Shown piece after piece: positions 673-19,089 of a DNA stretch of 37,903 bases. The stretch is taken from positions 1 through 37,903 of the forward strand of contig JAJRXF010000173.1 in assembly GCA_024276425.1 (NCBI GenBank), given 5' to 3'. Made by a program: the position numbers and the translations under genes. The notes below the pieces were generated by a model. The model searched no databases. It was given only the letters and a program-made list of their open reading frames with translations, and was not told the DNA's origin. How positions within the stretch are numbered: position 1 is the stretch's first letter; every line of letters starts with the position of its first letter. The stretch is from Actinomycetes bacterium (GTDB lineage: Bacteria; Actinomycetota; Acidimicrobiia; Acidimicrobiales; SZUA-35).

Positions 673-1323
673 ATGATTCGAGTATTGGTCGCCGATGATC
701 ACCACCTCATCCAGCAAGGAATCGAAGCCCTCCTCTCCGATACCGATGGCATCACCCTGGTAGGTCAGGCCAGCACAGCCCAAGAAACGCTCTGGTTGTA
801 CGGAGAACTTAAGCCCGACGTCATCTTGATGGATCTTCGCCTAGGAACCGACTGCGGAATCGAGACTGCTGCTGAAATCTTGCGAACCCATCCCGAGGCA
901 AGAATCGTGGCTTTAAGTGCTCATGGAGGGCGCAAGCTGACGCGAGCCACATACGAAGCGGGAATGATTGGCTACATCATGAAAGACGCCCCGCCAGAAC
1001 AAATCATCACCGCTCTGCTCGCGGCCGCCCTACCCATCGATCTCAGCGGAGTTGAGAAACCAGTCGTCGACCTCCGCCACACCGACACAATGCCACTCAC
1101 AAACCGAGAGGCCGAAGTCTTTCAGCTAGTCTCAATCGGATGGAGTAACCGACGGGTTGCCAAGGAGCTTGGGATTTCCGTTAAAACAGTGGAATCTCAT
1201 CTCAGCAAGAGCTACCACAAAACGGGGGTGACGAACCGCTCGCAGGCCGCCTTGTGGGCCCAAAGGCATCTCGGACCGCAACTGCAGAACGCGCCCCAGC
1301 CCAGCGAACCAACACAGTCGTGA
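673..1323 (+). CDS. LuxR/NarL-family response regulator (first)
   Basis: A 216-residue two-domain response regulator. The receiver domain (about 1-120) has the acidic pair D8/D9, the phosphoacceptor D54 in ILMDLR, S82 at the switch position and K104 in the YIMKDA motif. The C-terminal LuxR-type helix-turn-helix (about 138-200) reads LTNREAEVFQLV, then ELGISVKTVESHLSK, the DNA-recognition part. The start is well supported by AGGAGGT seven bases upstream. It overlaps the following kinase gene by GTGA, so kinase and regulator are very likely co-translated. Its partner is expected to be that kinase. It is a transcription factor acting in the cytoplasm; its target is inferred to be the biosynthetic promoter at 3317-3345 rather than shown. 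Confidence 0.92.
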   Translation: MIRVLVADDHHLIQQGIEALLSDTDGITLVGQASTAQETLWLYGELKPDVILMDLRLGTDCGIETAAEILRTHPEARIVALSAHGGRKLTRATYEAGMIGYIMKDAPPEQIITALLAAALPIDLSGVEKPVVDLRHTDTMPLTNREAEVFQLVSIGWSNRRVAKELGISVKTVESHLSKSYHKTGVTNRSQAALWAQRHLGPQLQNAPQPSEPTQS

Positions 1324-2621
1324 ACCAGCCAGTTTCTACCCGTCGACTCCTCTACCAATTCGCCCTCGCTGCTCTGGCCATTCTGGGCACCGTTGCCATT
1401 ATCACCATCTGGGCCACCCGACGACTCGCCCTCCAACAGGCCCTCGGCGATGCCTCCCGAAATACCGTGGAGTTGGCCGAGATGTACATACGGCCAGCCA
1501 TTCCTGAGAATCTCCAGACCACCAACGCAGACCTCAGGGACCTAGACCGCACCGTGCACCAAGACGTACTCTCCGACGAGATAACCCACGTACGCATCTG
1601 GGACCGAGGCGGACGCATTGTCTACAGCGACCAGTCCGACCTGATTGGAAGCTCTCACGAACTTGACGAAGCCGCCATCGACGCCTTCGCCACGGGACTC
1701 CCGCAAAGCAAGGTGAGCGACCCCGAACGAGAAATAGACGAAGGAATTGTCGGGGCCATCGAAGAACTCGAGGTCTACCACCGGATCAGCGACGGTAACG
1801 GCACCGAGTTCCTGTTTGAGACCTACCGACCCTATGCCGCGGTTGATGCCCGTTCCAGCGACCTGTTCTTGTCCATGGCCCCGCTCGCCCTGGGTGCCAT
1901 TCTCGGCCTGTTCAGTCTGCAACTTCCGCTCACCTATCTTCTCGTTCGTCGTCTCAACCAGGCCCAGATTCAGGAACGACTTGCTCTTCGAAGTTCGATC
2001 GCCGCCGCGGACCAGGAGCGGCGAGTCATTGCTGGCGACCTTCATGACGGCACGGTGCAAGACCTCGCCGGCATTTCCATGTCTTTAGCCGTTCTGGGAG
2101 ATCGAGCCGAGCGCGTAGGCAATCAGCGCGACGCTGAGGTAGCGAGACACGCCGCCACCGCCACTCGTCAAGCCGTTCGATCGCTCCGTTCACTTCTTGT
2201 GGACATTTACCCTCCGAATCTCGACGAAATCGGGCTGCAGCGAGCTGTGGCCGACCTCGCATCGGAAAACGTCTCCGACACTGCTGTCATCTCGGTCGAA
2301 ATCGAGCAGGGCCTACAGGTTTCCAATGCCATTGTGATGCTCGCCTACCGCACAATTCGGGAACTCCTCCGTAATGCACGGAGGCACGCCCAAGCATCCA
2401 AGATCGAGATCTCCGTTCATCGCAAGAACAATCAACTCCTCATTCGGGTCGCCGATGACGGCAAGGGGATCGATGCCAAACAAGGACCAGAGGATGACCG
2501 TCCACGGCTCGGCCTGCGTTCGCTCGCCGACCTCTTAGCTGCGGCAGGTGGAATTCTCGAATTGAACTCTCCCGCATCGGGAACCGGACTGGTCGCCACC
2601 GCCCAGGTACCGCTGTCATGA
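1320..2621 (+). CDS. Sensor histidine kinase, NarL/DesK-type (HisKA_3)
   Basis: A membrane sensor kinase of 433 residues from the GTG at 1320, which overlaps the upstream stop as GTGA. A GTG at 1254 is in frame but lies deep inside the regulator gene, so 1320 is preferred. A first TM helix (about 10-32) is followed by an extracytoplasmic sensor domain of about 150 residues with no recognised fold, then a second TM (about 180-203). The dimerisation domain carries DLHDGTVQ with H242 as the phosphorylated histidine, typical of HisKA_3. The ATPase domain shows the N-box region ELLRNARRHA, the G1 box VADDGKGID and a C-terminal GTGLVATAQVPL. It overlaps the next regulator by ATGA. The signal sensed is unknown. 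Confidence 0.92.
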   Translation: MNQPVSTRRLLYQFALAALAILGTVAIITIWATRRLALQQALGDASRNTVELAEMYIRPAIPENLQTTNADLRDLDRTVHQDVLSDEITHVRIWDRGGRIVYSDQSDLIGSSHELDEAAIDAFATGLPQSKVSDPEREIDEGIVGAIEELEVYHRISDGNGTEFLFETYRPYAAVDARSSDLFLSMAPLALGAILGLFSLQLPLTYLLVRRLNQAQIQERLALRSSIAAADQERRVIAGDLHDGTVQDLAGISMSLAVLGDRAERVGNQRDAEVARHAATATRQAVRSLRSLLVDIYPPNLDEIGLQRAVADLASENVSDTAVISVEIEQGLQVSNAIVMLAYRTIRELLRNARRHAQASKIEISVHRKNNQLLIRVADDGKGIDAKQGPEDDRPRLGLRSLADLLAAAGGILELNSPASGTGLVATAQVPLS

Positions 2622-3262
2622 TCCGGGTCGTGCTAGTTGACGACCACTGGGTTGTCCGCGAAGGACTCATGGCTGTCTTGGAAGAAGCAGAAGGGATGAA
2701 ACTCGTTGGTACCGCCGAGGGTGGCCACGAGGGCGTAGAGGTCGTGGCCGACACCAAGCCAGATGTCGTCCTCATGGACCTATCCATGCCGAAGGGAAAT
2801 GGTGTGCCAGCCATTGCGGAGATCACCAAACATCATCCCGCCACTCGGGTTGTGGTTCTCACCATGTTTGGGGAAGAGGGAAGCATCCTGGCCGCACTTG
2901 AAGCTGGCGCCAGTGGATTCCTCCTGAAGGACAGTTCCCCTTCCGAAGTCGTTGACGCCATCCGTTCCGCAGATGCTGGGCACTCCCCACTGGACCCCCG
3001 AGCTGCCAGCGCAGTCATCTCCGCATTGCGGACCGACAGTTCACTTCCGACACAACATGAGCTAAGCCAGCGAGAACTCGAGGTACTCAGCCTTGTCGCC
3101 CAGGGACTGCTCAACAAACAAATCGCAAGACAACTCGGGATTGCGGAGGCGACAGTCAAGGCTCACCTAACCCAAATTTACAGCCGCATTGGAGTTTCTG
3201 ACCGGCTTCAGGCCACCCTTTGGGCCCAACGAAACGGCATCGGAGGACCCACAACTGCTTAG
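2618..3262 (+). CDS. LuxR/NarL-family response regulator (second)
   Basis: A 214-residue regulator with the same layout as the one at 673: acidic pair D8/D9, phosphoacceptor D54 in VLMDLS, T82, K104 in FLLKDSS, and a LuxR HTH with LSQRELEVLSLVAQG and QLGIAEATVKAHL. It starts inside the kinase stop (ATGA overlap), so all three genes form one transcription-translation unit. Two regulators flanking one kinase suggests either a branched phosphorelay or regulators with different promoters; both receiver domains look intact. Its stop lies only 6 bases before the tandem palindromic repeats upstream of the biosynthetic operon, making it a prime candidate for their binding protein (inference). Confidence 0.93.
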   Translation: MIRVVLVDDHWVVREGLMAVLEEAEGMKLVGTAEGGHEGVEVVADTKPDVVLMDLSMPKGNGVPAIAEITKHHPATRVVVLTMFGEEGSILAALEAGASGFLLKDSSPSEVVDAIRSADAGHSPLDPRAASAVISALRTDSSLPTQHELSQRELEVLSLVAQGLLNKQIARQLGIAEATVKAHLTQIYSRIGVSDRLQATLWAQRNGIGGPTTA

Positions 3263-3268
3263 TTGTCC

Positions 3269-3306
3269 TCGCAGGGTCCTACGACTGGATCGCAGGGTCG
3301 TACGAC
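3269..3306 (+). promoter_or_regulatory. Tandem palindromic operator-like repeats
   Basis: TCGCAGGGTCCTACGAC (3269-3285) and TCGCAGGGTCGTACGAC (3290-3306) are direct repeats differing at one base and offset by exactly 21 bp, two DNA helical turns. The right half of the second copy, GTCGTACGAC, is a perfect 10-bp palindrome; the first differs by one base. The array ends 10 bases before the -35 of the next promoter, an activator-like position (palindrome centres near -50 and -71 from the proposed start). Confidence 0.6.
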
Positions 3307-3316
3307 CTTTCTCCGA

Positions 3317-3345
3317 TTGAGCCGGGCACGCACCTGTCTTAGGTT
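3317..3345 (+). promoter_or_regulatory. Promoter of the biosynthetic operon, predicted leaderless
   Basis: TTGAGC at 3317-3322, a 17-base spacer, and TAGGTT at 3340-3345 make a good actinobacterial sigma-70-type promoter. Six bases separate the -10 from the ATG at 3352, so transcription would begin at or next to the start codon. No Shine-Dalgarno site is present, in keeping with leaderless translation. Confidence 0.55.
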
Positions 3346-3351
3346 CGGCTC

Positions 3352-4665
3352 ATGGCATTCTCCACAGTCGACGACTTGACCGTCTCCATGACCTATGAGC
3401 CAAACGCGTACCCCTTCGAGCGAGAATCAGAGGTGCGGAGCTACTCACGTTCCTTTCCAACCACGTTCGTACGAGCCGCTGGAAGCACCATGACCGACTC
3501 ATCCGGTCGGACCTATATCGATTTCTTAGCTGGTTGTTCAACCTTGAACTATGGCCACAACGATCCGGACATGACCGAGGCATTGATGAGCTATCTGTCT
3601 CGCCAGGGTTTAACCCACGGGCTAGACCTACAAACCGAAGCGAAAGCCGAGTTCATCCAGACCTTCATCGATCTCATCCTTGATCCGCGGGGCTTGCCCT
3701 ACCGCCTGCAGTTCACCGGACCTACCGGGACCAACGCCATCGAAGCCGCTCTGAAGCTCGCCCGCAAAGTCACGGGCAGAAGTACGGTAATTTCCTTCAC
3801 CAACGGATTCCACGGGGTCACAATCGGGGCGCTGGCCGCAACCGGCAACCGACAACATCGCATGGGTCCAGCCATAGCTTTGCCTGGGGTCACTCGGGCA
3901 CTCTATGACGGCTACCTGGGGGCCTCTGTTGATACCGCCGAAATGCTTGACCAACTCCTCAGCGACCCATCGAGCGGCTATGACGCTCCAGCCGCCATCC
4001 TGGTTGAAACCGTTCAAGGTGAAGGAGGTATAAACACCGCTCGCGCATCATGGATGCGTGACATAGATGCCATTGCCAAGAAGCACGGTGCCCTTCTGAT
4101 AGTTGATGACATCCAGGCCGGGTGCGGCCGCACAGGAACGTTCTTTAGCTTCGACTCCATGGGGATCAAGCCAGATATTGTCACCCTGTCAAAATCGCTC
4201 TCCGGCTTCGGGCTGCCAATGGCCCTCGTGCTCATCCACCCCGACCACGATCAATGGCTGCCAGCCGAACACAACGGCACGTTCCGAGGGAACAACCTGG
4301 CATTTGTGACCGCAACCATCGCCCTGAAGAAGTTCTGGAGGAATGATGACCTCCGTGAGGATGTACGACGCCGAGGACGACTCGTCACCGAAGCCCTCAC
4401 AAACATGTCTCTCCATGTGCCCGGATCGGTCGTCAAAGGGCGCGGACTATTTCTTGGGCTAGACGTTGGTTCCGGAGAACGAGCTGGGGCCATATGCCAT
4501 CAGGCCTTCCACCATGGTCTGGTTATCGAAACATCGGGCGCCCGAGGGGAAGTGGTGAAGGTCCTTGCTCCGCTCACGACACCTGACGTTCTCCTAACCA
4601 GTGGTCTTGAAATCTTGCACCGGGCCGTCGAGGAACACCTCGACCTCCGGTTCACAACAATATGA
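3352..4665 (+). CDS. Class III aminotransferase, diaminobutyrate--2-oxoglutarate transaminase-like
   Basis: A 437-residue PLP-dependent class III (fold type I) aminotransferase. Family features are FLAGCSTLNYGHNDPD near the N-terminus, GPTGTNAIEAALKLAR, the LLIVDDIQAGCGRTG block with the PLP-pyridine aspartate, and K281 in TLSKSLSG as the Schiff-base lysine. The start SEVRSYSRSFP is characteristic of EctB and its relatives, which make L-2,4-diaminobutyrate from aspartate semialdehyde and glutamate. No ectA or ectC follows, so this is unlikely to be ectoine synthesis. Instead it overlaps (ATGA) a poly-lysine-synthetase-like NRPS, suggesting that it supplies diaminobutyrate as monomer. An ATG at 3388 is an alternative start, but the promoter fits 3352. 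Confidence 0.88.
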   Translation: MAFSTVDDLTVSMTYEPNAYPFERESEVRSYSRSFPTTFVRAAGSTMTDSSGRTYIDFLAGCSTLNYGHNDPDMTEALMSYLSRQGLTHGLDLQTEAKAEFIQTFIDLILDPRGLPYRLQFTGPTGTNAIEAALKLARKVTGRSTVISFTNGFHGVTIGALAATGNRQHRMGPAIALPGVTRALYDGYLGASVDTAEMLDQLLSDPSSGYDAPAAILVETVQGEGGINTARASWMRDIDAIAKKHGALLIVDDIQAGCGRTGTFFSFDSMGIKPDIVTLSKSLSGFGLPMALVLIHPDHDQWLPAEHNGTFRGNNLAFVTATIALKKFWRNDDLREDVRRRGRLVTEALTNMSLHVPGSVVKGRGLFLGLDVGSGERAGAICHQAFHHGLVIETSGARGEVVKVLAPLTTPDVLLTSGLEILHRAVEEHLDLRFTTI

Positions 4666-7600
4666 AGTCCCGGACCAGCATCCTTAGCAATGGCCACTTC
4701 CCAGGCCTGCATCGACCCGAACCTATGCCGACCTGGTCAACTCGTTCCTTCCCCGTCTCCGAGCTGAACACCTCCCAACCAAACGGGGCCGCCACTGCCC
4801 TGGTCAGCGCGGACGATCAGGCTCCAACGTGGAGGCCCTCAACTCGCTTTCACGACATGTTTGATCGGCAGTGCCTGCGCCTTGGCCCGGACGCTCCAAG
4901 CCACCCAGCTCTGGACTACGGCTCGGTCGTTATCAGCTATGCCGAACTGGCCGCTCAATCTAACCAACTCGCCCGATTCCTTCATGCAGAAGGAGTGGAG
5001 ATTGGCGATCATCTAGCCGTCCTGCTCGATCGATCCCAACTTGGGCCAGCGTCCGTCCTTGCACTCTCTCGTCTCGGTGTTAGTTATGTACCTCTCGATG
5101 CTGGCTTTCCCGAGACAAGAATCGCACATATCGTGGCCGACAGCGGAGTCACCGGCATCCTCACCCAACGTCGTCACCTCCACCTCTTCAAGAATCTCAG
5201 CGTGCCGGTGGTTGCTATTGATGACTATCTTGACTCAATTCGCCGCTATGCCCGAGACATCTTCGAACCAGACGGACTTCGAAACGCCCCGGACCCAACC
5301 GCATATGTGATCTACACCTCGGGAACGACCGGGCTACCAAAGGGCGTCCCCATCCGTCACTCGAGCATCTGCAACTTTCTTGATGTCGCAAGCTCGGCCT
5401 ATGGCTATCGACAAGAGGACCGGGTCTATCAGGGAATGACAATCGCGTTCGACTTCTCCGTGGAGGAACTGTGGGTTCCCCTCTGCTCCGGAGCGACGGT
5501 GGTTCCGGCTTCTTCTGACCGCCAACTTCTTGGCAGAGACCTGCAAGACTTTCTGGCAGGCAAGCACATCACCGCTCTTTGTTGTGTGCCGACCCTTTTG
5601 GCCACTATTGAACCAGACCTTCCGGACCTTCGCTTTCTCCTAGTATCCGGCGAAGCGTGCCCTCAAGAGCTCATCGACCCGTGGTTTTCCGACGGGCGTA
5701 GAATCCTCAATGCCTACGGTCCAACTGAAGCAACCGTCACCGCAACATGGTCAGTACTTCGGCCAGGCGAACCCATCACCATCGGAGGACCGCTGCCGAC
5801 CTACTACGTTGTCGTGCTCGATCCAGACATGCCCCTCGCGCTCGCTCCCGGGCAAGAGGGGGAGCTGTGTCTCGCCGGAGTTGGTCTAAGCGACGGCTAT
5901 CTGAATCGCCCGGAGCAGTCCGAACAGTCATTTATTGACGACTTCATCGGCCTCCCGAACAATCCATCTGGCCGCATCTACCGGACTGGAGACCTCGGGC
6001 GAATCAATTCCGACAACGAAATTGAGTATTTGGGAAGAATAGACACCCAGGTAAAAATCCGGGGCTACCGGATTGAGCTCGGCGAAGTCGAATCAGTCAT
6101 TAACTCGGTGCCTGGGGTGGGCCAATGTGTCGTTGAACCTTTTACTCCATCTGGGTCCGGCACAAAACTTGTTGCGTACCTGACTCACGACTCCTCCGCC
6201 GAAGCACCCGATCTGACCCTGCTCGATCGCCAACTGCGAAGTCAGTTGCCTGCGTATATGGTCCCGAGCTTCTATGAAACGTTGGAGGAGCTACCCCTAC
6301 TTCCCAGCACCAAGGTCGATCGGAAGGCTCTCCCCCCGCCAGCCACGAACCGATTTGTCGATAACACCCAGCCAAGCGTTCGCCCGGCAAACCATATCGA
6401 GTCCCAGCTTGAACAGGCTCTAGCTCAGCTTCTTCAAATGGATCAAGTCTCGGTCACAGCCAACTTCTTTGAAGAACTCGGTGCCGATTCTCTGACACTG
6501 GCTAGCTTCGCCAATCGCATTCGAGAAGACCTCGGCGTGCGAACCATCTCCATGAAGCAACTCTATCAAAACCCATCGATTGCCCAGCTCAGCCCGCTCA
6601 TCCAAGCATCACAATCGGCCGGCACCAAAGATTCAAACCAACGTGAGACCGTCACCCAGACCCGGAGTCCGCTGTTAGGACAATCTCCCGGACCCCAAGT
6701 ACACATCCCCTCAAGACGCAGCCATCTGAGCGTCGCTGCGCTTCAACTGGTGGCTTACATCCTCTTCGCCCTTGTTTCGCTGATCGGAATCAGCGAGATC
6801 TTCAGCTTCATTGATCGAGCCGATGGCGCCATTGGACTCTACCTGGCAGCAGTAATCGCAGGTTTGACCAGCCTTGTGAGTTCCTCGGTGGCCCTTGTCA
6901 TCGTCAAATGGATCAGTGTCGGATCCTTCGACTGCGACCCAATTCCGATTTGGAGTCTCCGCTACTTCAGGTTCTGGTTGGCCAAACAAGCCATCACCCT
7001 CAACCCCCTGAATCTCTTCGTCGGCACACCTGCCTACAACTCCTACCTTCGGCTCCTTGGGGCCAAGGTTGGGCCGGGGGCCGTAATCCTGGCACGGCCC
7101 CCGGTTTGCACCGACCTTGTGAGCATCGGCAATGGAGCCGTGATACGTCAAGACTGTTCCTTTCAGGCGTACAAGGCCGAACGAGGACTCATTCGTCCAG
7201 GACCGATTCTAATCGGGGACAACGCCCTTGTGTGCGACGCCACTGTCCTGGACATCCACACCTCAATTGCCCCGAATGGCCAACTCGGAAACTCATCCGC
7301 CCTACTCCAAGGACAAGAGATACCCGACCGCCAGGTGTTCCACGGGTCGCCGGCCGAGCCAACAACGACCTCCTATGACCGAGTCGAACCCCTCACTCAT
7401 TCACCATGGCTACGGTGGGTTTCAGGTCCGCTTCGATTCCTCAGCGTTTCACTGATTGGCCTGCCGCTGATCCTGCTCACAATGACAGGCGCCGTTCGAA
7501 TCACCCGCTCGCTCGCAAATTCGCTCACTGACGGCTCGTCAACCGGCGCCGCGCAAGCGCTACTCGGCACCGCGGCTGTGACCACCATTTTGTTTCTTGG

Positions 7601-8873
7601 ATCCATCGTTGTCGGCCTAGTGTCAGTGACACTCGTGCCAAGAGCCCTACAGCGCTTTGTCAAAGCCAACCAGGTTCACCCACTGTTCGGACTCCAATAC
7701 ATGCTGGCTCGAGCCATCACTCGGTTCTCCAACTCGCCACGCTTTAACATCATCCTTGGTGACAGTTCGCTCATACTGCAATACCTCAAACTCTTGGGCT
7801 TTCAAGCCAAAACAGCGGTACAAACCGGCTCCAATTTTGGCTCCGACCAGCGGCACCACTCTCCCTTCCTATGCAAGGTCGAAGGCGAAACCATTGCCTC
7901 GGATGGACTGGTTTTTCTCAACAACGAGTACTCCTCAACATCCTTCATAAGCCGGGAAGTCTCGCTGCCTCCTTCCACCTACATCGGCAACTTTGTCCAG
8001 GTTCCCGCCAATGCGGCAATTGGTCCAAACTGCCTCATTGGGACCAAAACGGCCGTCCCTCTGGAAGGCCCAGTTCGATCTGGGGTCGGTCTACTCGGCT
8101 CACCAGCATTCGAAATTCCCCGATCGGTTGAGCGAGACCTAACGATAAATCGCTACGACGACCCCCAAATTCGGGACGATCGAATTCGGCTCAAGCTTCG
8201 CTCGAACCTGCTGTCACTGGCCCTCTACCTCGCCCGCTCCTGGATACTGGCCTTCACCGGAATCCAACTAGCGCTCTTGCTAAAGGGCACCATCCAGCCA
8301 AACACCGGACTAGCTGCGCTGGATCGCACGCTTCCTTTCCTGGTTAGCCTCGTCTTCTGGGTACCAGCGGCGGCGGGCTTCATGGTCCTCACCGAACGAT
8401 TGACATTGCGTTTCCGGCCCCTCAAGCCCCTCTACTGCTCGCTCTATGACCAACGGTTCTGGGCCCACGAGCGATTCTGGAAATCCAACTACAACGGGTT
8501 TGCACGGCTTTTCAATGGCACCCCGTTCAAACCCCTGCTCCTGCGAGGCCAGGGAATCCGAATCGGGTCGATGCTCTTTGATGATGGAGCGTCAATGTCA
8601 GAGCCAACCCTGATCTCTATTCGCGACAATTGCACCCTCAACAATCGGTCCTGGATAATGTGTCATTCCCTTGAAGACGGAACCTTTAAGTCCGATCGAG
8701 TGCGGGTCGGACAATCTTGCACCATCGGAGTTGGTGCCTTTGTTCACTATGGGACAGTAATGGGGGCCGATGCTGTGTTGGCAGCTGATGCCTTCTTCAT
8801 GAAGGGGTCCGTCGCCCAGCCCGGAACCTACTGGGCCGGTAACCCAGCGACCGAGGTGGCGCCACTCGAGTGA
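4662..8873 (+). CDS. Single-module membrane NRPS, poly-amino-acid (Pls-type) synthetase-like
   Basis: A 1403-residue protein with no condensation domain. An adenylation domain (about 65-560) has YTSGTTGLPKG, NAYGPTEATVTATW, YRTGDLG and KIRGYRIELGEVE. A carrier domain follows with S610 in GADSLTLAS as the phosphopantetheine site. The last 700 residues match the NRPS terminal domain TIGR02353: six TM helices in three pairs (about 690-755, 920-990, 1185-1246), each pair followed by a left-handed beta-helix/hexapeptide-like domain (about 790-880, 1030-1160, 1285-1400), ending in YWAGNPATEV. This is the layout of epsilon-poly-lysine synthetase (about 1300 residues), which polymerises one cationic amino acid at the membrane. 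With the diaminobutyrate aminotransferase overlapping upstream, the predicted product is poly-diaminobutyrate; lysine, ornithine or a short oligomer are alternatives. An ATG at 4725 is a possible later start. Confidence 0.85.
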   Translation: MKSRTSILSNGHFPGLHRPEPMPTWSTRSFPVSELNTSQPNGAATALVSADDQAPTWRPSTRFHDMFDRQCLRLGPDAPSHPALDYGSVVISYAELAAQSNQLARFLHAEGVEIGDHLAVLLDRSQLGPASVLALSRLGVSYVPLDAGFPETRIAHIVADSGVTGILTQRRHLHLFKNLSVPVVAIDDYLDSIRRYARDIFEPDGLRNAPDPTAYVIYTSGTTGLPKGVPIRHSSICNFLDVASSAYGYRQEDRVYQGMTIAFDFSVEELWVPLCSGATVVPASSDRQLLGRDLQDFLAGKHITALCCVPTLLATIEPDLPDLRFLLVSGEACPQELIDPWFSDGRRILNAYGPTEATVTATWSVLRPGEPITIGGPLPTYYVVVLDPDMPLALAPGQEGELCLAGVGLSDGYLNRPEQSEQSFIDDFIGLPNNPSGRIYRTGDLGRINSDNEIEYLGRIDTQVKIRGYRIELGEVESVINSVPGVGQCVVEPFTPSGSGTKLVAYLTHDSSAEAPDLTLLDRQLRSQLPAYMVPSFYETLEELPLLPSTKVDRKALPPPATNRFVDNTQPSVRPANHIESQLEQALAQLLQMDQVSVTANFFEELGADSLTLASFANRIREDLGVRTISMKQLYQNPSIAQLSPLIQASQSAGTKDSNQRETVTQTRSPLLGQSPGPQVHIPSRRSHLSVAALQLVAYILFALVSLIGISEIFSFIDRADGAIGLYLAAVIAGLTSLVSSSVALVIVKWISVGSFDCDPIPIWSLRYFRFWLAKQAITLNPLNLFVGTPAYNSYLRLLGAKVGPGAVILARPPVCTDLVSIGNGAVIRQDCSFQAYKAERGLIRPGPILIGDNALVCDATVLDIHTSIAPNGQLGNSSALLQGQEIPDRQVFHGSPAEPTTTSYDRVEPLTHSPWLRWVSGPLRFLSVSLIGLPLILLTMTGAVRITRSLANSLTDGSSTGAAQALLGTAAVTTILFLGSIVVGLVSVTLVPRALQRFVKANQVHPLFGLQYMLARAITRFSNSPRFNIILGDSSLILQYLKLLGFQAKTAVQTGSNFGSDQRHHSPFLCKVEGETIASDGLVFLNNEYSSTSFISREVSLPPSTYIGNFVQVPANAAIGPNCLIGTKTAVPLEGPVRSGVGLLGSPAFEIPRSVERDLTINRYDDPQIRDDRIRLKLRSNLLSLALYLARSWILAFTGIQLALLLKGTIQPNTGLAALDRTLPFLVSLVFWVPAAAGFMVLTERLTLRFRPLKPLYCSLYDQRFWAHERFWKSNYNGFARLFNGTPFKPLLLRGQGIRIGSMLFDDGASMSEPTLISIRDNCTLNNRSWIMCHSLEDGTFKSDRVRVGQSCTIGVGAFVHYGTVMGADAVLAADAFFMKGSVAQPGTYWAGNPATEVAPLE

Positions 8874-8935
8874 AAGGAACACCTAGAGTAAGCCAACCCT
8901 CCAACCCTCTCTCAATACCGAAAAGGTCCGCTACC

Positions 8936-10495
8936 ATGACATTGCATCGCCGAGAGGCCCTCGAACTCCTACTTGGAGCCGGTGCCCTTGTGGCATTGGG
9001 TGGATGTCGATCCGATGCGTCCGATTCCGCTGGCAGTCTCTCGAGCGCACTTTCCAGCCCCGAGGCGACCGCCCCTGAGGTGGTGTCGCTCGAAGCCGAG
9101 GTTAGAGATCTGAAACTAAGCCTCTGGGCAGAGGCATCGGTGGCCACGATCGCCGCTGGCCTAACCAGCGATGTTTATTCCTTCGGAGCGAAAGTTATCG
9201 AAGGCGATCCAGGCAGCATCACCCCCGGTCCGTCCTATCTTGGGCCAACAATCCACCTTCGGCCCGGCCAACGGGTTCAGATCAGTTTTGAGAACCGTCT
9301 TGAGGACGAGAGCATCGTTCATTGGCACGGACTGGTGGTGCCTCAGGACCAGGACGGCCAACCCGCCGACTCGGTGGACCCGGGAGAGACATATGACTAC
9401 GACTTCGTAGTCGACAACGATCCCGGCACCTATTGGTACCACCCGCATCCTCATGCCAAGACTGGTGAACAGGTGTATCGAGGTTTAGCCGGGATGCTTC
9501 TCATCCATGGTGATGAACCAGACCTTCCAAGCGGGGCAAACGATCTCTCCCTTGTTCTGCAGGACCGGACCATCGGGGCAGACGGCCAGCTTCAGTATGT
9601 CGGAAACATGCGCGACCAGATGGCCGGGTTTGTCGGGTCGACCCTGGTCACCAATGGGGTGGCCGACCTCGTCACAATGGTGAACCCAGAGCCGTATCGT
9701 CTTCGCATACTCAACGGCGCCAACTCGCGAACCTCCTATCTCACCCTGTCCACCGGAGACCCAATCACCGCCATAGCCGTCGATGGCCACCTTCTCCCCG
9801 AAGCTCGCACCATCCCCGGCCTAGTAATCACACCAGCCCAGCGCACGGACCTTTGGATCGATTTCTCCAACTATGAAGCTGGTCAACGGATCGAGCTACT
9901 AAGCGCCAATACATTCAACGAGGCTGGAAACATGATGGGCGGGGGTATGGGTGGCGGCGGTGAACTCTCGCTCGACCCACAAACGGCGATGACCTTCGTG
10001 GTCAGTGACGCCCCGTCAAGTAAAGGAGAACTCCCGGCATCGCTCGGACGGCCCGTCGACTTTGGTCTCGACGACGCCATCAACCCGACCGAGCCCAAGG
10101 AGTTTGTTCTTACCACCCGTCGAGGCTCCCATTGGATCAACGACCTTCAATGGGAAGGGCGCAAGTCGTCCGAACCAGAACAAGTCAAGGCGGGAACCAT
10201 CGAGGTGTGGGACTTTGTCGGACAATCCCCGCTCGCCCACCCTATGCATGTGCACGGAAAGTCCTTCAGCGTTATCGGTAGAACCTGGGATGATGAGTCT
10301 GCGGCCGATTCTTGGGCCCAGATCTCTGATGGAATAATCGACGACGGACTCCGCGACACGGTCCTTGTCTGGCCGGGACAACGCGTCAGAATCGCTGTTC
10401 CGATCGCCGACCACCTTGGCTACTTTTTGTACCACTGCCATATCCTCGAACACGAAGACGACGGCATGATGCGCAACTTCAACGTAAGCGCCTAA
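8936..10495 (+). CDS. Multicopper oxidase, Tat-exported lipoprotein
   Basis: A 519-residue laccase-like oxidase. The N-terminus MTLHRREALELLLGAG has a twin arginine and hydrophobic core, and ALGGC fits a lipobox, so it is probably Tat-exported and lipid-anchored outside the cell. Copper ligands are visible: HWHG (H129, H131), YHPHPH (H169, H171), HPMHVHG (H435, H438, H440) and HCHILEHEDDGM (H500, C501, H502, H506, axial M511), completing type 1, 2 and 3 sites. A short Met/Gly-rich loop (NMMGGGMGGGG) recalls copper-responsive CueO-like enzymes. The ATG at 8936 has AAAGG nine bases upstream; an in-frame GTG at 8870 overlapping the NRPS stop is an alternative. It shares the operon with the polymer genes, but its substrate is unknown. 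Confidence 0.9.
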   Translation: MTLHRREALELLLGAGALVALGGCRSDASDSAGSLSSALSSPEATAPEVVSLEAEVRDLKLSLWAEASVATIAAGLTSDVYSFGAKVIEGDPGSITPGPSYLGPTIHLRPGQRVQISFENRLEDESIVHWHGLVVPQDQDGQPADSVDPGETYDYDFVVDNDPGTYWYHPHPHAKTGEQVYRGLAGMLLIHGDEPDLPSGANDLSLVLQDRTIGADGQLQYVGNMRDQMAGFVGSTLVTNGVADLVTMVNPEPYRLRILNGANSRTSYLTLSTGDPITAIAVDGHLLPEARTIPGLVITPAQRTDLWIDFSNYEAGQRIELLSANTFNEAGNMMGGGMGGGGELSLDPQTAMTFVVSDAPSSKGELPASLGRPVDFGLDDAINPTEPKEFVLTTRRGSHWINDLQWEGRKSSEPEQVKAGTIEVWDFVGQSPLAHPMHVHGKSFSVIGRTWDDESAADSWAQISDGIIDDGLRDTVLVWPGQRVRIAVPIADHLGYFLYHCHILEHEDDGMMRNFNVSA

Positions 10496-10526
10496 CCGGG
10501 GCTGTCAGCCAACCTGCCAACCCCGG
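10496..10526 (+). terminator. Hairpin after the multicopper oxidase gene
   Basis: CCGGGG (10496-10501) pairs with CCCCGG (10521-10526) right after the stop codon. No run of T follows, so it is at best a weak or factor-assisted terminator between convergent genes. Confidence 0.35.
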
Positions 10527-10547
10527 GGCAGCCTATTGCCGAGAGCG

Positions 10548-10880
10548 CTAGTGGAGATCGGAAAGAACTCCGTAGTTCTCAGCCAAGAGATAGTAGAAGA
10601 CCACACGGCCCTTTCGACGGTCGTCCTTCATCGTTTCGCAAACCGACTTGATGGCACCATCAAGCTCCGCGTCGGATTCGCTGCGCCCAAGCTTCTTCTT
10701 TAGCCAACTATTTCGGACTCGCTCAAGCTCGGAGGGATCGCTGCATGAGACCAAAGCCGAGTCGCCATTCGGGTTAGCGAGAGCGATTCCGAGGTGCTTC
10801 ACGATCCCGGCTACTGCCGCCTCATCGGCGTCGGGACGGTATTTCTTCACTCCGGGGAGGAAGTCTTGTACCTTTGCCAT
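10548..10880 (-). CDS. DUF2853 family protein
   Basis: A 110-residue soluble protein, the full length of the DUF2853 family. Recognisable are ALVSCSDPSELERVRNSWL, KKLGRSESDAELDGAIKSVC and the end RRKGRVVFYYLLAENYG. The family is a small all-helical protein of unknown function found across proteobacteria and actinobacteria. AAAGGAG about 8 bases before the ATG supports the start. It is convergent with the multicopper oxidase and lies behind a hairpin that separates it from the DUF6159 gene, so it is probably monocistronic. Confidence 0.88.
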   Translation of the reverse strand: MAKVQDFLPGVKKYRPDADEAAVAGIVKHLGIALANPNGDSALVSCSDPSELERVRNSWLKKKLGRSESDAELDGAIKSVCETMKDDRRKGRVVFYYLLAENYGVLSDLH

Positions 10881-10933
10881 GTTGTCATGCTCCTTTAGTT
10901 GGAGGGCCTGTCACCCGTCTACAAGCTAGCAAA

Positions 10934-10957
10934 GAAATACCCTGGCATCGGTATTTC
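10934..10957 (-). terminator. Inverted repeat between DUF6159 and DUF2853 genes
   Basis: GAAATACC (10934-10941) and GGTATTTC (10950-10957) form a perfect 8-bp stem with an 8-base loop, 20 bases downstream of the minus-strand DUF6159 stop. On the minus strand it is followed by TTTGC, a weak T run. It may end DUF6159 transcription, or act as an operator for DUF2853. Confidence 0.4.
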
Positions 10958-10977
10958 GCAAAGACGCTCATACCGAC

Positions 10978-11811
10978 TTAGCGTGGCCGAAATGCCTGTT
11001 GCATCAGGCTGGATTCAAAACTTGGAACAACCTGGTTGGTCGCAAACCGATAGAGCGCCGTCTGATAGACCACCGACAGAGCCGACATCACGATCATCAC
11101 CATCACGATGCCAACAACCGCAAGCACTAGGGCAAGCGCAGTGACCGCCACCGAGCCAACGATTGCCCCCAGAACCCCAATGGCAATGAAAGGAAGCATG
11201 GCCAAGAACCCGACCAATCCAAGTCCGACGTGGCCAGCCAACCCTTCTCCCCATGCCTTGCGCAGGAGACCGGCCGAGCGTTTCACCGCATCGATCGGCC
11301 CAACATTTTCCAGCACCAGAATAGGCAAAACCAAGAATGTCACTGCGGCCCAAGCGAGGCCGCCCAAGAACCCAAGCAGGCCACCCAGGAAGCCGGCACG
11401 CTGCTGAAGGGTACGAATGAGATGAGACACAGTGGCAGAGACAAGAGCCCACGGAAGAATCCGACCGAGCCGGCTGGTTGCTCCTCCCAGAGCTGACCCG
11501 AGGGTCGGGTCTCCCCCGGACATTCTCTGGTTGGCGGCATGAACCAAGGCCGAATTGAAGAAGATGGTTACGAAGGCCAAGACAAAGTAGATCAACGCTG
11601 CCAGAACATAGGTGACCGGAGTGGTCTGAAAGCTGGCGTTGGTCAGATCGCCTTGAACGCTGACCGACAGCCAAAGAGGATACGCGAATAAGCCAATCAT
11701 AAGCAATGAGGACAAGGCCGACAGGACGGGCAACACAAGGAGTTCTCCATCCTGTCGAAGCACTGACCACGACGACTTGAATAGTTCGATGGATGTAGAT
11801 ACTCGTCCCAT
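10978..11811 (-). CDS. DUF6159 family integral membrane protein
   Basis: A 277-residue polytopic membrane protein from the ATG at 11811. The start MGRVSTSIELFKSSWSVL and the pattern of about six hydrophobic segments fit DUF6159. It includes a FFNSALVHAANQRM segment after the second helix, and VLENVGPIDAVKRSAGLLRKAWGEG, a conserved amphipathic block shared with DUF4013/DUF6159 glycerophosphoryl-type membrane proteins. In-frame upstream starts would add an unconserved basic tail of about 50 residues, so the shorter form is preferred. No strong ribosome binding site is seen. Function is unknown. It is divergent from the PI-PLC-like gene at 11946. Confidence 0.8.
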   Translation of the reverse strand: MGRVSTSIELFKSSWSVLRQDGELLVLPVLSALSSLLMIGLFAYPLWLSVSVQGDLTNASFQTTPVTYVLAALIYFVLAFVTIFFNSALVHAANQRMSGGDPTLGSALGGATSRLGRILPWALVSATVSHLIRTLQQRAGFLGGLLGFLGGLAWAAVTFLVLPILVLENVGPIDAVKRSAGLLRKAWGEGLAGHVGLGLVGFLAMLPFIAIGVLGAIVGSVAVTALALVLAVVGIVMVMIVMSALSVVYQTALYRFATNQVVPSFESSLMQQAFRPR

Positions 11812-11945
11812 AACCGACCAGCTTGGCAGAACGCGACCCATTCGGCCAGCACAACTAGCCAAAGGACCAATGCGGACCACACCAAATCTCGGCATCCTTA
11901 GGGGGAGGTGAGTACTCTTGGCCACAATGAAGAAGCGGCACAATA

Positions 11946-14276
11946 GTGGATAGCTCAACTCGTCGACGTCTAAGAATCTCCCGAATTCTTTATGCGGCCA
12001 CCTTTGTTCTGACCCTCATTTCCGGGCCAATACTCTACGTCTCATCCGTGATTGATGACGAGGACGCCTTCGTTTCCGTAGCAGATCAGATCGTCGCCCG
12101 CCCCGAGGTTCGGACCGTCATCGCAGAGTCCGTCACGACCATCACCTTCGAGGCCCTAGCCGCAGATGAGGCCCTGGCCGACGTTCTCCCCGACCAGGCC
12201 AAGACCTTTGCTGTGCCTCTGACCAGAATCGCCACCAGCCAACTCACCGACGCGGCCTTCCGGCTACTCGATACCGAAATTGCGGTTGAAGTTCGCGACA
12301 CCGCCCTGCGTGAGGTGCACAGGCAGATCACGGCCGATACCGACGAGGTCACCATTGACCTGCGAGCGGTACTGGTCCGCACCAGTAGAGAGATTGGTGG
12401 GCCCACCATTGGGGCCGGAGTGGCCAAGTTTGTTTCCGGTCGGGACACCGGACGGTACACCCTGGCCCCGGCCGGAAGCTCAACCGCCAAGCTTGTCGCC
12501 GCCGTCCGGCTCGTTCCCACCTTGGGGGCTCTAGTTGCCTTCGCAGCCCTTGCCTTCCTTGTTCTGGGCATCTTGGTTGCCCCCGACCGACGCCGCGGTC
12601 TCATCGTTGGTGGTCTAACTCTTGCGGCGAGTGCGGCGGTATCCACACTGGCCATCTGGGTCGTGCTGTTTGCCGTCCTTGGTGCCAGCGGAGCCGAATC
12701 CGGGATTGGCGTGGCTGTGGCCGAAATTGTGGCCAGCGACTTTGCCCAACAAGAGCGCGGCATCATTGTCAATGGAGCGGTGCTGGCCCTGATTGGACTT
12801 CTACTGGGTGAACGGCCCTCCGCGGTGGCCATTCGGTCGTTACCCGGCCACCTCTGGTCTAGAAGGCCAGGACTCTCCCAGAGCATTGCCAACATCATCG
12901 GCGACAATCCTCCTCTTGCTCGGGCCGGCGTCTGGTTTACCGGGCTGTTCGCCATCAGCTTGTGGTCATCACCGACAAAGCGAATCCTCCTGACCATTCT
13001 GGCGTTGAGCATCGCAAGCCAAATCGGGATCTGGCTTGCCACCAATCCGGGCGAAGCAGCCAACCGCTGGAGGAAGCAAGTCGGCTTCTCCATCAGCCCA
13101 CCAAGGCGGGCCGAAGACAACTCCTCCCGCATCCGAATCAACCTTGGTGTGATCACCGCTGTGCTGATTCTCTTGTGGCCAGCATGGAGCACCAGTGTGG
13201 TGACCGTCATCGTCGCCCTTGGTGCCTTGGCCCAAGCTCTGGTCGATCTGCCAGCCGCTCGCAGGATGGCCCGCCAGACGAAACCGACCACCACCGAGCA
13301 GGTTGCGACCCCGAAGCGTCAGCGAAGGTATCTGGTGGCCGGAACAGCGGTTGGTGCCTTTGCCATTCTCGGCGTGCTCTCAACCAGTGGGGCAACCGAA
13401 CGAACTGCGGCATCCTCTGACTGCAATGGTTTGGCACAACTCTGCGATCGGCGTATCGACGAGGTTGTGTTCGCCGGATCACATAACTCCATGTCCTCCA
13501 CCGAACTCGGCTGGGAACTCGCCATGCAGACCGGTGACATCGTCGCCCAACTCGACGACGGTATTCGTGCCCTGCTCATCGATGCTCTGTACTGGAAAAA
13601 GCAAGGGTCGCTCGATGGTGGGGATGAGGCCGCGGCGGCTTCCATCATCGAGGCAGCCCTGAGCGAAGACGAACCGATGCCGGGAGCTTGGCTTTGTCAC
13701 GGATTCTGCGCGCTCGGTGCTACCGATCTGACTGGAGGTCTGGCCGATATCGCATTGTGGCTTGAGACGAACCCTCGAGAAGTTCTCCTCATCATCGTCC
13801 AGGATGAGATTTCTGAATCCGATCTGATGGAGGCGTTTGAGGCCAGCGGATTGCGTCGATACGCCTACACCCACGAGCCCGGCTCTCCTTTCCCAACCCT
13901 GGGAGCGATGATCGAGGCTGATCAGCGAATTCTCGTTTACGGCGAGAACGGTGGCAGTCCGACCAGTTGGTTCCAAAATGCATGGGACACTGCCTTTACC
14001 GAGACCCCCTACACCTTCTCTCTCCGCAGCGAGTTCTCCTGCGCCCCCAATCGGGGAGTCGAAACCAACCCTCTCTTCCTCATCAATCATTGGCTGACAA
14101 CGGGAATCCCGGTCAAGGAGGCGGCCGCCACCATCAACAGCCGGGAAGCCCTTCTCAAGCGTGTCGAGGATTGCCGCTCTGAGCGAGGCAGGCTGCCAAC
14201 GGTTCTTGCCACCGACTTTTCCCAGACCGGAGATCTTGTCGCGGTGGTTGATGAACTTAATGGCTTGGCCAACTAG
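11946..14276 (+). CDS. Membrane-anchored PI-PLC X-like phosphodiesterase
   Basis: A 776-residue protein from a GTG. The first 480 residues hold a TM helix (about 17-38), an extracytoplasmic region of about 140 residues, and then seven or eight further hydrophobic segments up to about 480. The C-terminal 290 residues resemble the PI-PLC-X/PLC-like phosphodiesterase barrel: H513 in VVFAGSHNSMS is the first catalytic histidine, ALLIDALYW follows the second strand, and H585 in WLCHGFCALG is the second catalytic histidine. Several cysteines (SSDCNGLAQLCDRR, CHGFC) suggest an extracytoplasmic catalytic domain with disulfides. The substrate, probably a phospholipid or glycolipid headgroup, cannot be told. 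An 8-codon ORF (ATG 11927) overlaps the start. Confidence 0.82.
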   Translation: MDSSTRRRLRISRILYAATFVLTLISGPILYVSSVIDDEDAFVSVADQIVARPEVRTVIAESVTTITFEALAADEALADVLPDQAKTFAVPLTRIATSQLTDAAFRLLDTEIAVEVRDTALREVHRQITADTDEVTIDLRAVLVRTSREIGGPTIGAGVAKFVSGRDTGRYTLAPAGSSTAKLVAAVRLVPTLGALVAFAALAFLVLGILVAPDRRRGLIVGGLTLAASAAVSTLAIWVVLFAVLGASGAESGIGVAVAEIVASDFAQQERGIIVNGAVLALIGLLLGERPSAVAIRSLPGHLWSRRPGLSQSIANIIGDNPPLARAGVWFTGLFAISLWSSPTKRILLTILALSIASQIGIWLATNPGEAANRWRKQVGFSISPPRRAEDNSSRIRINLGVITAVLILLWPAWSTSVVTVIVALGALAQALVDLPAARRMARQTKPTTTEQVATPKRQRRYLVAGTAVGAFAILGVLSTSGATERTAASSDCNGLAQLCDRRIDEVVFAGSHNSMSSTELGWELAMQTGDIVAQLDDGIRALLIDALYWKKQGSLDGGDEAAAASIIEAALSEDEPMPGAWLCHGFCALGATDLTGGLADIALWLETNPREVLLIIVQDEISESDLMEAFEASGLRRYAYTHEPGSPFPTLGAMIEADQRILVYGENGGSPTSWFQNAWDTAFTETPYTFSLRSEFSCAPNRGVETNPLFLINHWLTTGIPVKEAAATINSREALLKRVEDCRSERGRLPTVLATDFSQTGDLVAVVDELNGLAN

Positions 14277-14291
14277 CCGCCGAATCAGAAC

Positions 14292-15611
14292 CTAACCATG
14301 GACAGACATTGATGAGTCTGGATGACGATCTCGATTTCGACTGAAGAAGCCGACGTCGATGTCGCAGCCGGTGTAAGGGCCCCGCACCACCAGGGGATTT
14401 TGATCATGGTCAAGCCCATCCTCTACCTCCTCGATGAGCTCCGCCATCACATGACCGGCAATCCCAGCGTTCTTGAATTGATTCCCGCTGGTTCCAATAG
14501 CGACATAAAAGCCGTCCAAGTCTGTTCGGTCATAAATGGGAATCCAATCACTACTGACGTCATAGAGGCCGACAACCCCCAGTTTCTTGTGAGGCACTCC
14601 GAGGCTCGGAATCCGCTTGTTGGCCCGGTACACCTGGGCCTCCCAGCGCTCACTGGTGACTTCCGGATTAAAATCGTCGGGATCGGCCCAGTCTGGCTCG
14701 TCACACTCGGGATCGGTTCCGCCAATCAGCACATTGCTTCCAAGGTGAGGGCGCAAATAGATGCCGTTGTCGTCATCGGCGATATTGGTCCCGCTATGGC
14801 CGAAACCAAAGTCCTCCGGGGCTGGCACCTGATGGATCTCGTGTCGCATTGGCCGGGTCGAAATAGCCATTGATCCGGCTAGACCCGCCATCTCGTTGAC
14901 GATGGCGCTATGGGGTCCAGCCACGTTCACCACAACCTCGCTCGACATCTCGGTCCCATCGCGAAGTACCACTCCTTGACAACGGTCATCGCGTCGAACG
15001 ATGGAAGCGATTTCTGTACCAAACCGAAACACCGCGCCTTTTGCCTCGGCCGCTCGCATCAGATTGTGAGCCGCTAGCGTTGGGTCATCGACATAGCCAG
15101 AGTCTGGGCTGTATAGCGCTCCGGCTAACTGGCCGGTGGCCGGCTCCCAAAAAGCTTCATCAGTCGGGCTGATCGGTGGTCCGTACCGCCCAAGGTCCAA
15201 CGACGGATAACGATCGGCTAGATCGGCGGCCGTCCACTCCTCATAGGGAACACCAATGTCATCCCACAGTGGCTTGACACGCTCGGAATGATCACCAGGA
15301 CCAACCGACAAGGTTGCCATCCCGCATTGGATAAACCGGGCGAGGCCATTCTCGTCTGGTACTTCCAAGTACTGTTCCCAATTCCGCCAGTAATGCATGC
15401 CCTCCCAGGCCATCATTACTCCAGCCGTAGTGGAATAGCTGAACCGAATGATCGACCCCGAACTGCTGGTCGATCCGTAGCCTGCTCCGGCTCCCTTGTC
15501 CAGGTTTAGCGTCCTCCATCCTCGCCGCGCCAGTTCGTAGGCAACCGCACAACCAATAACTCCGGCGCCAACAATTATTGCGTCGTACTCCGACGCTGTT
15601 CCCTCGGCCAT
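14292..15611 (-). CDS. FAD-dependent oxidoreductase (DAO family, sarcosine/glycine oxidase-like)
   Basis: A 439-residue soluble flavoenzyme. The N-terminal dinucleotide-binding motif is DAIIVGAGVIGCAVAYELARRG, ending with LDKG rather than the usual acidic E. GYGSTSSSGSIIRFSY near residue 50 is the FAD-contacting loop of DAO-family amine oxidases, and VYRANKRIPSLG plus GLYDVSSDWIPIYDRTDLDGFYVAIGTSGNQFKNAG form the C-terminal FAD segment. These enzymes oxidise secondary or N-methylated amino acids. It is divergent from a LysR regulator at 15750 and close to a DMGDH-like gene, so a methylated-amine substrate is likely. Convergent with the PI-PLC gene, 15 bases apart. Confidence 0.85.
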   Translation of the reverse strand: MAEGTASEYDAIIVGAGVIGCAVAYELARRGWRTLNLDKGAGAGYGSTSSSGSIIRFSYSTTAGVMMAWEGMHYWRNWEQYLEVPDENGLARFIQCGMATLSVGPGDHSERVKPLWDDIGVPYEEWTAADLADRYPSLDLGRYGPPISPTDEAFWEPATGQLAGALYSPDSGYVDDPTLAAHNLMRAAEAKGAVFRFGTEIASIVRRDDRCQGVVLRDGTEMSSEVVVNVAGPHSAIVNEMAGLAGSMAISTRPMRHEIHQVPAPEDFGFGHSGTNIADDDNGIYLRPHLGSNVLIGGTDPECDEPDWADPDDFNPEVTSERWEAQVYRANKRIPSLGVPHKKLGVVGLYDVSSDWIPIYDRTDLDGFYVAIGTSGNQFKNAGIAGHVMAELIEEVEDGLDHDQNPLVVRGPYTGCDIDVGFFSRNRDRHPDSSMSVHG

Positions 15612-15647
15612 TGATGGATACTGGCAGATCGAGTAGCGCTTCGTCCA

Positions 15648-15691
15648 TGACGGTGACGCGGTTTGGCTCCGTCAGACCTGACATTTTGTCA
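15648..15691 (+). promoter_or_regulatory. LysR-type operator region between divergent genes
   Basis: TGACATTTTGTCA at 15679-15691 is an interrupted palindrome with the exact T-N11-A form of LysR boxes. A second dyad, TGACGG (15648-15653) with CCGTCA (15669-15674), lies next to it, nearer the FAD oxidoreductase start. The pair fits the two-site layout LysR regulators use to control a divergent target gene. Confidence 0.55.
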
Positions 15692-15749
15692 TGGACCATG
15701 CAGTCCCGTCGCTGCCCATCCCCAAGCCACACTCTGCCATACTTCGTCG

Positions 15750-19066: not shown

Positions 19067-19089
19067 TTCATCCTGCGGTTCAGTGGCTG

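Follow-up and report, generated by a model that had tools for sequence, protein, structure and literature searches.

The DNA stretch analyzed here, called the window throughout, is the 37,903-nucleotide contig JAJRXF010000173.1 of assembly GCA_024276425.1, which derives from an actinobacterium of the Acidimicrobiales. It encodes an EctB-type aminotransferase and, overlapping it by 4 bp, a single-module nonribosomal peptide synthetase (NRPS) with a membrane domain. We consider it highly likely that this pair constitutes a regulated operon for a gamma-linked polymer or oligomer of L-2,4-diaminobutyrate (Dab). An earlier note, made from the letters of this DNA alone, had proposed a cationic poly-amino-acid operon with a multicopper oxidase as one of its parts. 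Its observation is confirmed, including the coordinates of the open reading frames (ORFs) and the overlap (ATGA) of both genes. Its interpretation holds in part: The polymer synthetase and the Dab supply are supported, whereas the oxidase as a part of the system is not.

In the mechanism we propose, EctB would aminate aspartate semialdehyde to yield L-Dab, and the synthetase would adenylate L-Dab and load it onto its own carrier domain. The membrane domain would then join Dab units repeatedly via the side-chain amine, such that a cationic isopeptide chain emerges at or across the membrane. Two response regulators and a histidine kinase encoded upstream in the order RR1-HK-RR2 would probably control ectB-pls through the palindrome GGTCGTACGACC.

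Synthetase family and adenylation pocket

The protein at 4662-8873 reaches 507.6 bits on TIGR02353 over residues 693-1396 (NCBIfam; cut-off 423.1) and 510.3 bits in the whole-genome search. It also passes the adenylation-domain model TIGR01733 with 376.5 bits (cut-off 317.4). The comparison with TIGR02353 and the Pls family, recommended as a check in the earlier note, thus places the protein inside the Pls/PosA family. Pfam reports AMP-binding and PP-binding and no condensation or thioesterase match, in agreement with a single adenylation-thiolation (A-T) module. The family is uncommon: TIGR02353 is matched over its cut-off only once in the own genome (G000), in six of 61 near genomes including the own one, and in 24 of the 396 genomes sampled from the phylum.

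Six transmembrane (TM) helices are seen as three pairs, by hydropathy as well as in a model of the C-terminal part that AlphaFold2 built from 7 sequences with moderate confidence (pTM 0.72, mean pLDDT 64.2). In the model, a soluble stretch containing beta-helix-like strands comes after each pair of long helices. The three hexapeptide-like domains of the earlier note, which in this family should form left-handed beta-helix segments, are borne out in part: The first is modelled well, the third fairly and the second poorly (pLDDT under 50 at model residues 368-487); Pfam Hexapep gives one sub-threshold match in the synthetase (26.7 vs 27). The best 50 Foldseek matches to solved structures are mainly hexapeptide acyltransferases and gamma-carbonic anhydrases, and they are local, with TM-scores by query of 0.14 or less. 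Searched against the sequences of solved structures, the membrane domain retrieves only hexapeptide-type proteins, matched at their beta-helix ends and with a best E of 0.0023. The model agrees with the description of the PosA model given in the accessible part of PMC10522769. No solved Pls structure was found among the literature matches listed.

By alignment, the ten residues of the adenylation pocket read DFECLSAVTK. The pocket columns were assigned by hand from the PheA convention and then checked on relatives. A Sphingomonas plasmid protein reads DMEHNGTVTK, one residue off the published PosA code DMEHNGTVSK; another relative reads DSECYGGVTK, identical to the published Bdellovibrionales code; and DAESIGTVVK, read in further relatives, carries the alanine reported for poly-lysine enzymes. 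According to the portion of PMC10522769 available, position 2 is Phe in the synthetases of poly-2,3-diaminopropionate (PDAP) and poly-Dab (PDAB), Met in PosA and Ala in Pls, while Asp1 and Glu3 are essential in PosA. The window pocket has Asp at position 1, Phe at position 2 and Glu at position 3. Because of this Phe, the window enzyme is, as judged from its residues, a member of the diaminopropionate (Dap)/Dab pocket class rather than of the Lys (Ala) or Orn (Met) class. The predicted code is hence of the diamino-acid type, and at the level of sequence no specificity for a neutral or aromatic amino acid was seen.

Proposed diaminobutyrate supply and recurrence of the gene pair

EctB of the window scores 581.7 bits on TIGR02407 (NCBIfam; equivalog cut-off 552.2). 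Three solved EctB sequences match it nearly over the full length, all with E 3.5e-142 or better, the lysine of the SKSLSG motif is retained, and it is the sole EctB of the assembly at E 1e-90 or better. A search for ectoine synthase (EctC) returned no match in the own genome, whose assembly is 96% complete; the identical search was positive in four of the nine genomes given, the own genome being one of the nine. With no ectoine synthase found in the genome, EctB most likely feeds the polymerase. Along this line, family scores, pocket and comparative context support both central claims of the earlier note, namely the aminotransferase as a Dab supplier and the synthetase as a predicted maker of a cationic isopeptide homopolymer. 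A gene of the phosphopantetheinyl-transferase family (PF01648) is present in the genome; this assignment is at the family level and does not establish the Sfp type.

The comparative context is drawn from 51 family loci, duplicates included, which were fetched with flanks of mostly 6-8 kb; absence of EctB refers to these fetched flanks. The gene immediately upstream of the synthetase encodes EctB in the window, in both copies of a genome of the same genus (G001), in Crenothrix, in two Rhodobacter-type genomes, on a Skermanella plasmid, in genome G014, and in two loci of genome G003. These loci span actinobacteria and proteobacteria. Nine distinct ones were counted; the second same-genus copy, truncated at a contig end, is not among them. 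This copy likewise has EctB upstream, and its first nine pocket residues, DFECLSAVT, are those of the window. Crenothrix and both same-genus copies also show a 4-bp overlap of ectB and synthetase gene when starts are chosen mechanically.

It is very improbable that EctB belongs to an ectoine pathway and lies beside the synthetase by chance. The protein does pass the equivalog cut-off for ectoine EctB, and G014 combines a synthetase-linked EctB with ectC elsewhere, but the own assembly is without ectC by a search that succeeds in other genomes, and the adjacency of EctB and synthetase recurs in nine loci of different phyla.

The linkage coincides with the pocket. The pattern D[FY]E[AC][LI]S occurs in 9/9 synthetases with EctB versus 1/32 without (intact proteins with readable pocket); the corresponding Fisher p of 2.9e-8 is overstated, since rows are related and the sample is non-random. 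Twenty-three of the 32 read DAESIGTVVK. This comparison leaves out duplicates together with the incomplete second same-genus copy (L043, L061, L063, L064) and 14 split or partial rows (L048, L058, L070, L071, L077, L089, L096); L083 and L087 are included. The contrast within the Phe class is sharper than the overall one: Without EctB, four Hyphomicrobiales synthetases read DFEALGTVTK and one from Rhodococcus reads DFEYLGTVTK.

These observations bear on the alternative that the enzyme, alike in fold and pocket class, makes a Dap polymer and that EctB meets some other need. Both PDAP and PDAB synthetases have Phe at position 2, and it is difficult to separate them by sequence. However, EctB makes Dab, overlaps the synthetase gene by 4 bp and recurs beside synthetases across phyla, and the pocket is a different one in the four Phe-class synthetases from Hyphomicrobiales that lack EctB. 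The studied Dap maker uses a cysteine-synthase-like and an ornithine-cyclodeaminase-like enzyme, as described in the part of PMC4668381 at hand, and neither is among the ten proteins scanned at 673-16595 (NCBIfam, Pfam). We therefore regard a Dap product as improbable.

Several points weigh against a Dab polymer fed by EctB. Phe at position 2 cannot separate Dab from Dap, and the PDAP synthetase adenylates Dab weakly yet makes no Dab polymer (PMC4668381, as far as accessible), so that pocket and product need not agree. No pathway-specific aspartate kinase occurs among the ten scanned proteins. In G014, ectC lies on a different contig, and since no EctB other than the one linked to the synthetase reaches E 1e-90, that EctB might serve ectoine as well. 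In genome G040, which is without ectC, EctB sits apart from a Lys-type synthetase. The synthetase of a Paenarthrobacter plasmid (L051) reads DFECLSVVTK with no EctB in the fetched plasmid flanks. The 41 compared loci are a non-random sample: A scan with peptides of the window supplied some of them, and the 32 include many near relatives of the poly-lysine type. Finally, the EctB-linked synthetases do not form one clade, and two changes are needed in a tree of 24 synthetases (the row of L049 trimmed at its N-terminus), with which a single origin may remain compatible.

In this tree, the window protein groups with the same-genus copy first, and Crenothrix and a single G003 protein join next (100/100). 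This grouping crosses phyla and suggests horizontal transfer.

Regulators, candidate operator and multicopper oxidase

The earlier note expected the adjacent two-component system and the oxidase to set the locus apart. Of these, the two-component system is the better-supported distinguishing part, as the RR-HK-RR order is found upstream of ectB in all three copies of the genus. On contig C6 of G001 (L101), RR1, HK and RR2 upstream of EctB show identities of 50, 69 and 77%. For the trio at the end of contig C2 (L106), the identities are 59, 77 and 84%; behind it come a promoter region and initial codons resembling those of ectB, and C2 probably runs on into the other synthetase copy on C137. 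EctB-linked loci from outside the genus showed no such trio in their fetched flanks.

The palindrome GGTCGTACGACC ends 44-45 bp before the ectB ATG in all three genus copies, and TAGGTT stands just before the start codon in all of them. If TAGGTT acts as a -10 element, a leaderless start of ectB is possible. Exact copies of the palindrome number one in the own 3.95-Mb assembly and two in G001, each at the place before ectB. G003 has one further exact copy, in surroundings that lack these genes and with a response-regulator-like stretch 5 kb away; G014 and G030 have none. A control pattern, the palindrome letters backwards, gave 0, 1, 1, 0 and 0 copies in G000, G001, G003, G014 and G030, respectively. 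Consequently, one chance copy per genome is not unusual, and the conserved position is a stronger argument than rarity. A copy with two mismatches is located at 3275-3286; allowing up to two mismatches, 4 sites were found in the window versus 1.62 expected, which is not above chance. What speaks for the palindrome is therefore the exact site, which is rare and holds a conserved position. Promoter and terminator scans of the window yielded counts no higher than those of shuffles; of their results, we use only the lack of a terminator-like site between the synthetase and oxidase genes.

RR2 would be the regulator that binds GGTCGTACGACC. The sensor domain of the kinase is extracytoplasmic, with TM helices seen by hydropathy, and comprises about 145 amino acids (aa). 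It is acidic, with a net charge of -16 in the window kinase and of -8 and -16 in the same-genus homologues. Such a domain may suit a cationic ligand, charge by itself being no proof of one.

The multicopper oxidase (MCO) behind the synthetase looks complete, with Cu-oxidase_2 and _3, His motifs and the twin-arginine (Tat) signal noted before. Its start is probably ATG 8936 rather than GTG 8870, because a twin-arginine signal with lipobox (RREALELLL...LGGC) begins there; start, signal and lipobox were judged by eye. This ATG is located about 60 bp past the synthetase stop, and the gap contains no terminator-like site. The nearest solved structures are chains named bilirubin oxidase and multicopper oxidase.

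As a conserved partner, the oxidase was rejected. It has no blastp match at E 1e-10 among the 51 fetched loci, and by tblastn there is one weak match in L048 (31% over 166 aa), at a distance of about 7.5 kb from a synthetase that lacks EctB. It is found behind neither same-genus copy, and its nearest homologue (60%) is unlinked, adjoining an acyl-CoA dehydrogenase gene in G030, a genome without a synthetase over the cut-off. Most simply, the oxidase is a lineage-specific neighbour, its gene being probably transcribed along with the pair and probably dispensable for the polymer.

That the oxidase is a working part after all, in oxidative tailoring of the polymer or in handling polymer-bound copper outside the membrane, appears unlikely to us. 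Its position on the same strand, the short gap without a terminator-like site, complete copper motifs and a probable export signal argue for such a role. So do oxygenase genes directly behind the synthetase elsewhere, of the TauD family on two Pseudonocardia plasmids (L053, L096) and of the cupin/JmjC family in Crenothrix (L044), whose products possibly hydroxylate monomer or polymer. On the other side, no match occurs in the fetched flanks of the other eight distinct EctB-linked loci or behind the second same-genus copy, and the 60% homologue has its place in a genome without the synthetase. Aliphatic amines are not known as usual MCO substrates. A search for any conserved third partner failed as well: The adjacent genes differ among EctB-linked loci (about 19 proteins scanned from mechanical ORFs, covering some neighbours only).

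A wider scheme can be drawn up, in which the sensor detects a cationic polymer, own or of a competitor, or the state of the envelope, RR2 switches ectB-pls via the palindrome and thereby closes a control loop for poly-Dab, and the exported oxidase was added in this species for tailoring or copper handling. Taken jointly, these claims are unlikely to hold.

Known systems, feature coordinates and further observations

The gene pair is a further case of a published arrangement. For PddA, the gamma-poly-D-Dab synthetase of Streptoalloteichus hindustanus, the excerpted text of PMC8225329 names PddC (transaminase) and PddD (aspartate kinase) as Dab suppliers and describes the racemase gene pddB as translationally coupled to pddA. 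A Dab transaminase feeding a Pls-type synthetase is the arrangement proposed here too, and with PddC beside PddA already published, the aminotransferase does not distinguish our locus. The difference lies in PddB racemase and PddD aspartate kinase, neither of which is among the ten proteins scanned here.

A D-Dab polymer like that of S. hindustanus is also to be weighed. The enzyme belongs to the same family, and the pddA context likewise contains a Dab transaminase. In the known cases, as far as that source covers them, it is the PddB-type racemase gene that is coupled to pddA, whereas here ectB overlaps the synthetase gene instead. No DapF-like racemase was found among the ten scanned proteins, a distant racemase not having been searched for; L is therefore favoured over D. 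We rate a D-polymer as quite improbable, and the operon appears most like the L-polymer type. What we observe are gene families, pocket residues, the recurring adjacency, and the conservation of regulators and palindrome; substrate, product, linkage, L-configuration and regulation are inferred.

PldA of Streptomyces, a Pls-type synthetase for gamma-poly-L-Dab, is similar in its product. A figure legend in PMC8117764 lists dat (Dab transaminase) and ask among the genes in pldA and pddA contexts; the aspartate kinase gene marks a difference to our locus, although this legend does not assign genes to loci. The pair in the window lies between a two-component system and a multicopper oxidase gene. 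PosA, which makes delta-poly-L-ornithine in Acinetobacter baumannii, shares the A-T-membrane architecture, Asp1 and Glu3, and differs by Met at pocket position 2 and by its substrate ornithine (PMC10522769, in the portion available). The PDAP synthetase of Streptomyces albulus PD-1 shares the architecture (PMC4668381) and Phe at position 2 (PMC10522769). It differs by its substrate Dap, by precursor genes that are not near the synthetase gene, and by seven TM domains counted, all according to the accessible text of PMC4668381.

Poly-Dab biosynthesis is a known but rarely described antimicrobial polymer pathway, with few loci in the literature available to us, and a literature search for polylysine biosynthetic gene clusters in acidimicrobial bacteria found no papers. 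The transaminase-synthetase pair is now placed in a little-studied actinobacterial family, and its relatives extend it to Crenothrix, Skermanella and Rhodobacter-type proteobacteria. As a rule, we suggest that a synthetase which is linked to EctB and has a pocket of the form D[FY]E[AC][LI]S can be predicted to use Dab. Being compact, regulated and equipped with a specific candidate operator, the cassette would make the control of such polymers directly testable.

Table 1. Coordinates of the features of the locus in the window.
Feature	Position	Strand	Evidence
NarL/LuxR-type response regulator RR1	673..1323	+	Pfam Response_reg and GerE
Sensor histidine kinase (HK)	1254..2621	+	HisKA_3 and HATPase_c; two TM helices
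NarL/LuxR-type response regulator RR2	2618..3262	+	Pfam Response_reg and GerE
Palindrome GGTCGTACGACC, likely (putative) operator	3296..3307	.	Exact copy unique in assembly; conserved place
TAGGTT, possible -10 element just before ectB	3340..3345	+	Conserved; -10 role tentative
EctB-type L-2,4-diaminobutyrate:2-oxoglutarate transaminase, 437 aa	3352..4665	+	TIGR02407
Pls/PosA-family homopolymer synthetase, 1403 aa	4662..8873	+	TIGR02353
Adenylation domain, residues 79-557	4896..6332	+	Pfam AMP-binding and AMP-binding_C; pocket DFECLSAVTK
Carrier (T) domain with LGADSL phosphopantetheine (Ppant) serine	6405..6593	+	PF00550, 46 bits; motif at residue 606
Membrane polymerisation domain, three TM pairs and beta-helix-type soluble segments	6738..8849	+	TIGR02353 span, model, fold search, hydropathy
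Multicopper oxidase, predicted Tat lipoprotein	8936..10495 (ORF 8870-10495)	+	Cu-oxidase_2 and _3, His motifs

Among the relatives, a split variant of the synthetase was observed in L058 (G013), L070 (G425), L071 (G220) and L077 (G187), where an ORF with the Pls membrane domain has no A domain found. Two of these ORFs were scanned (L070 and L077), and both have a carrier domain ahead of the membrane domain. An adjoining second NRPS ORF provides A and T domains, and in L058 and L070 a thioesterase too (the ORF of L071 lies outside the scan). The A domains of all four loci share the pocket DIWQSTADDK. On plasmids of Aureimonas and Sphingomonas (L091 and L093), the synthetase gene is followed by genes for a GNAT acetyltransferase and a phosphopantetheinyl transferase; there, the carrier-activating enzyme therefore travels with the synthetase.

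Near the operon, the membrane protein at 11946-14276 has no Pfam or NCBIfam match; its C-terminal part presumably resembles a PI-PLC-type phosphodiesterase. A relative (40% over 297 aa) is encoded directly upstream of EctB in G014 (L060, 4401-6470) and in none of the other EctB-linked loci compared. Further downstream, at 16592-20652, a gene of the trimethylamine methyltransferase family (MTTB) lies beside one for an FAD oxidoreductase/GCV_T protein like dimethylglycine dehydrogenase, and both likely serve the use of methylamines or betaine.

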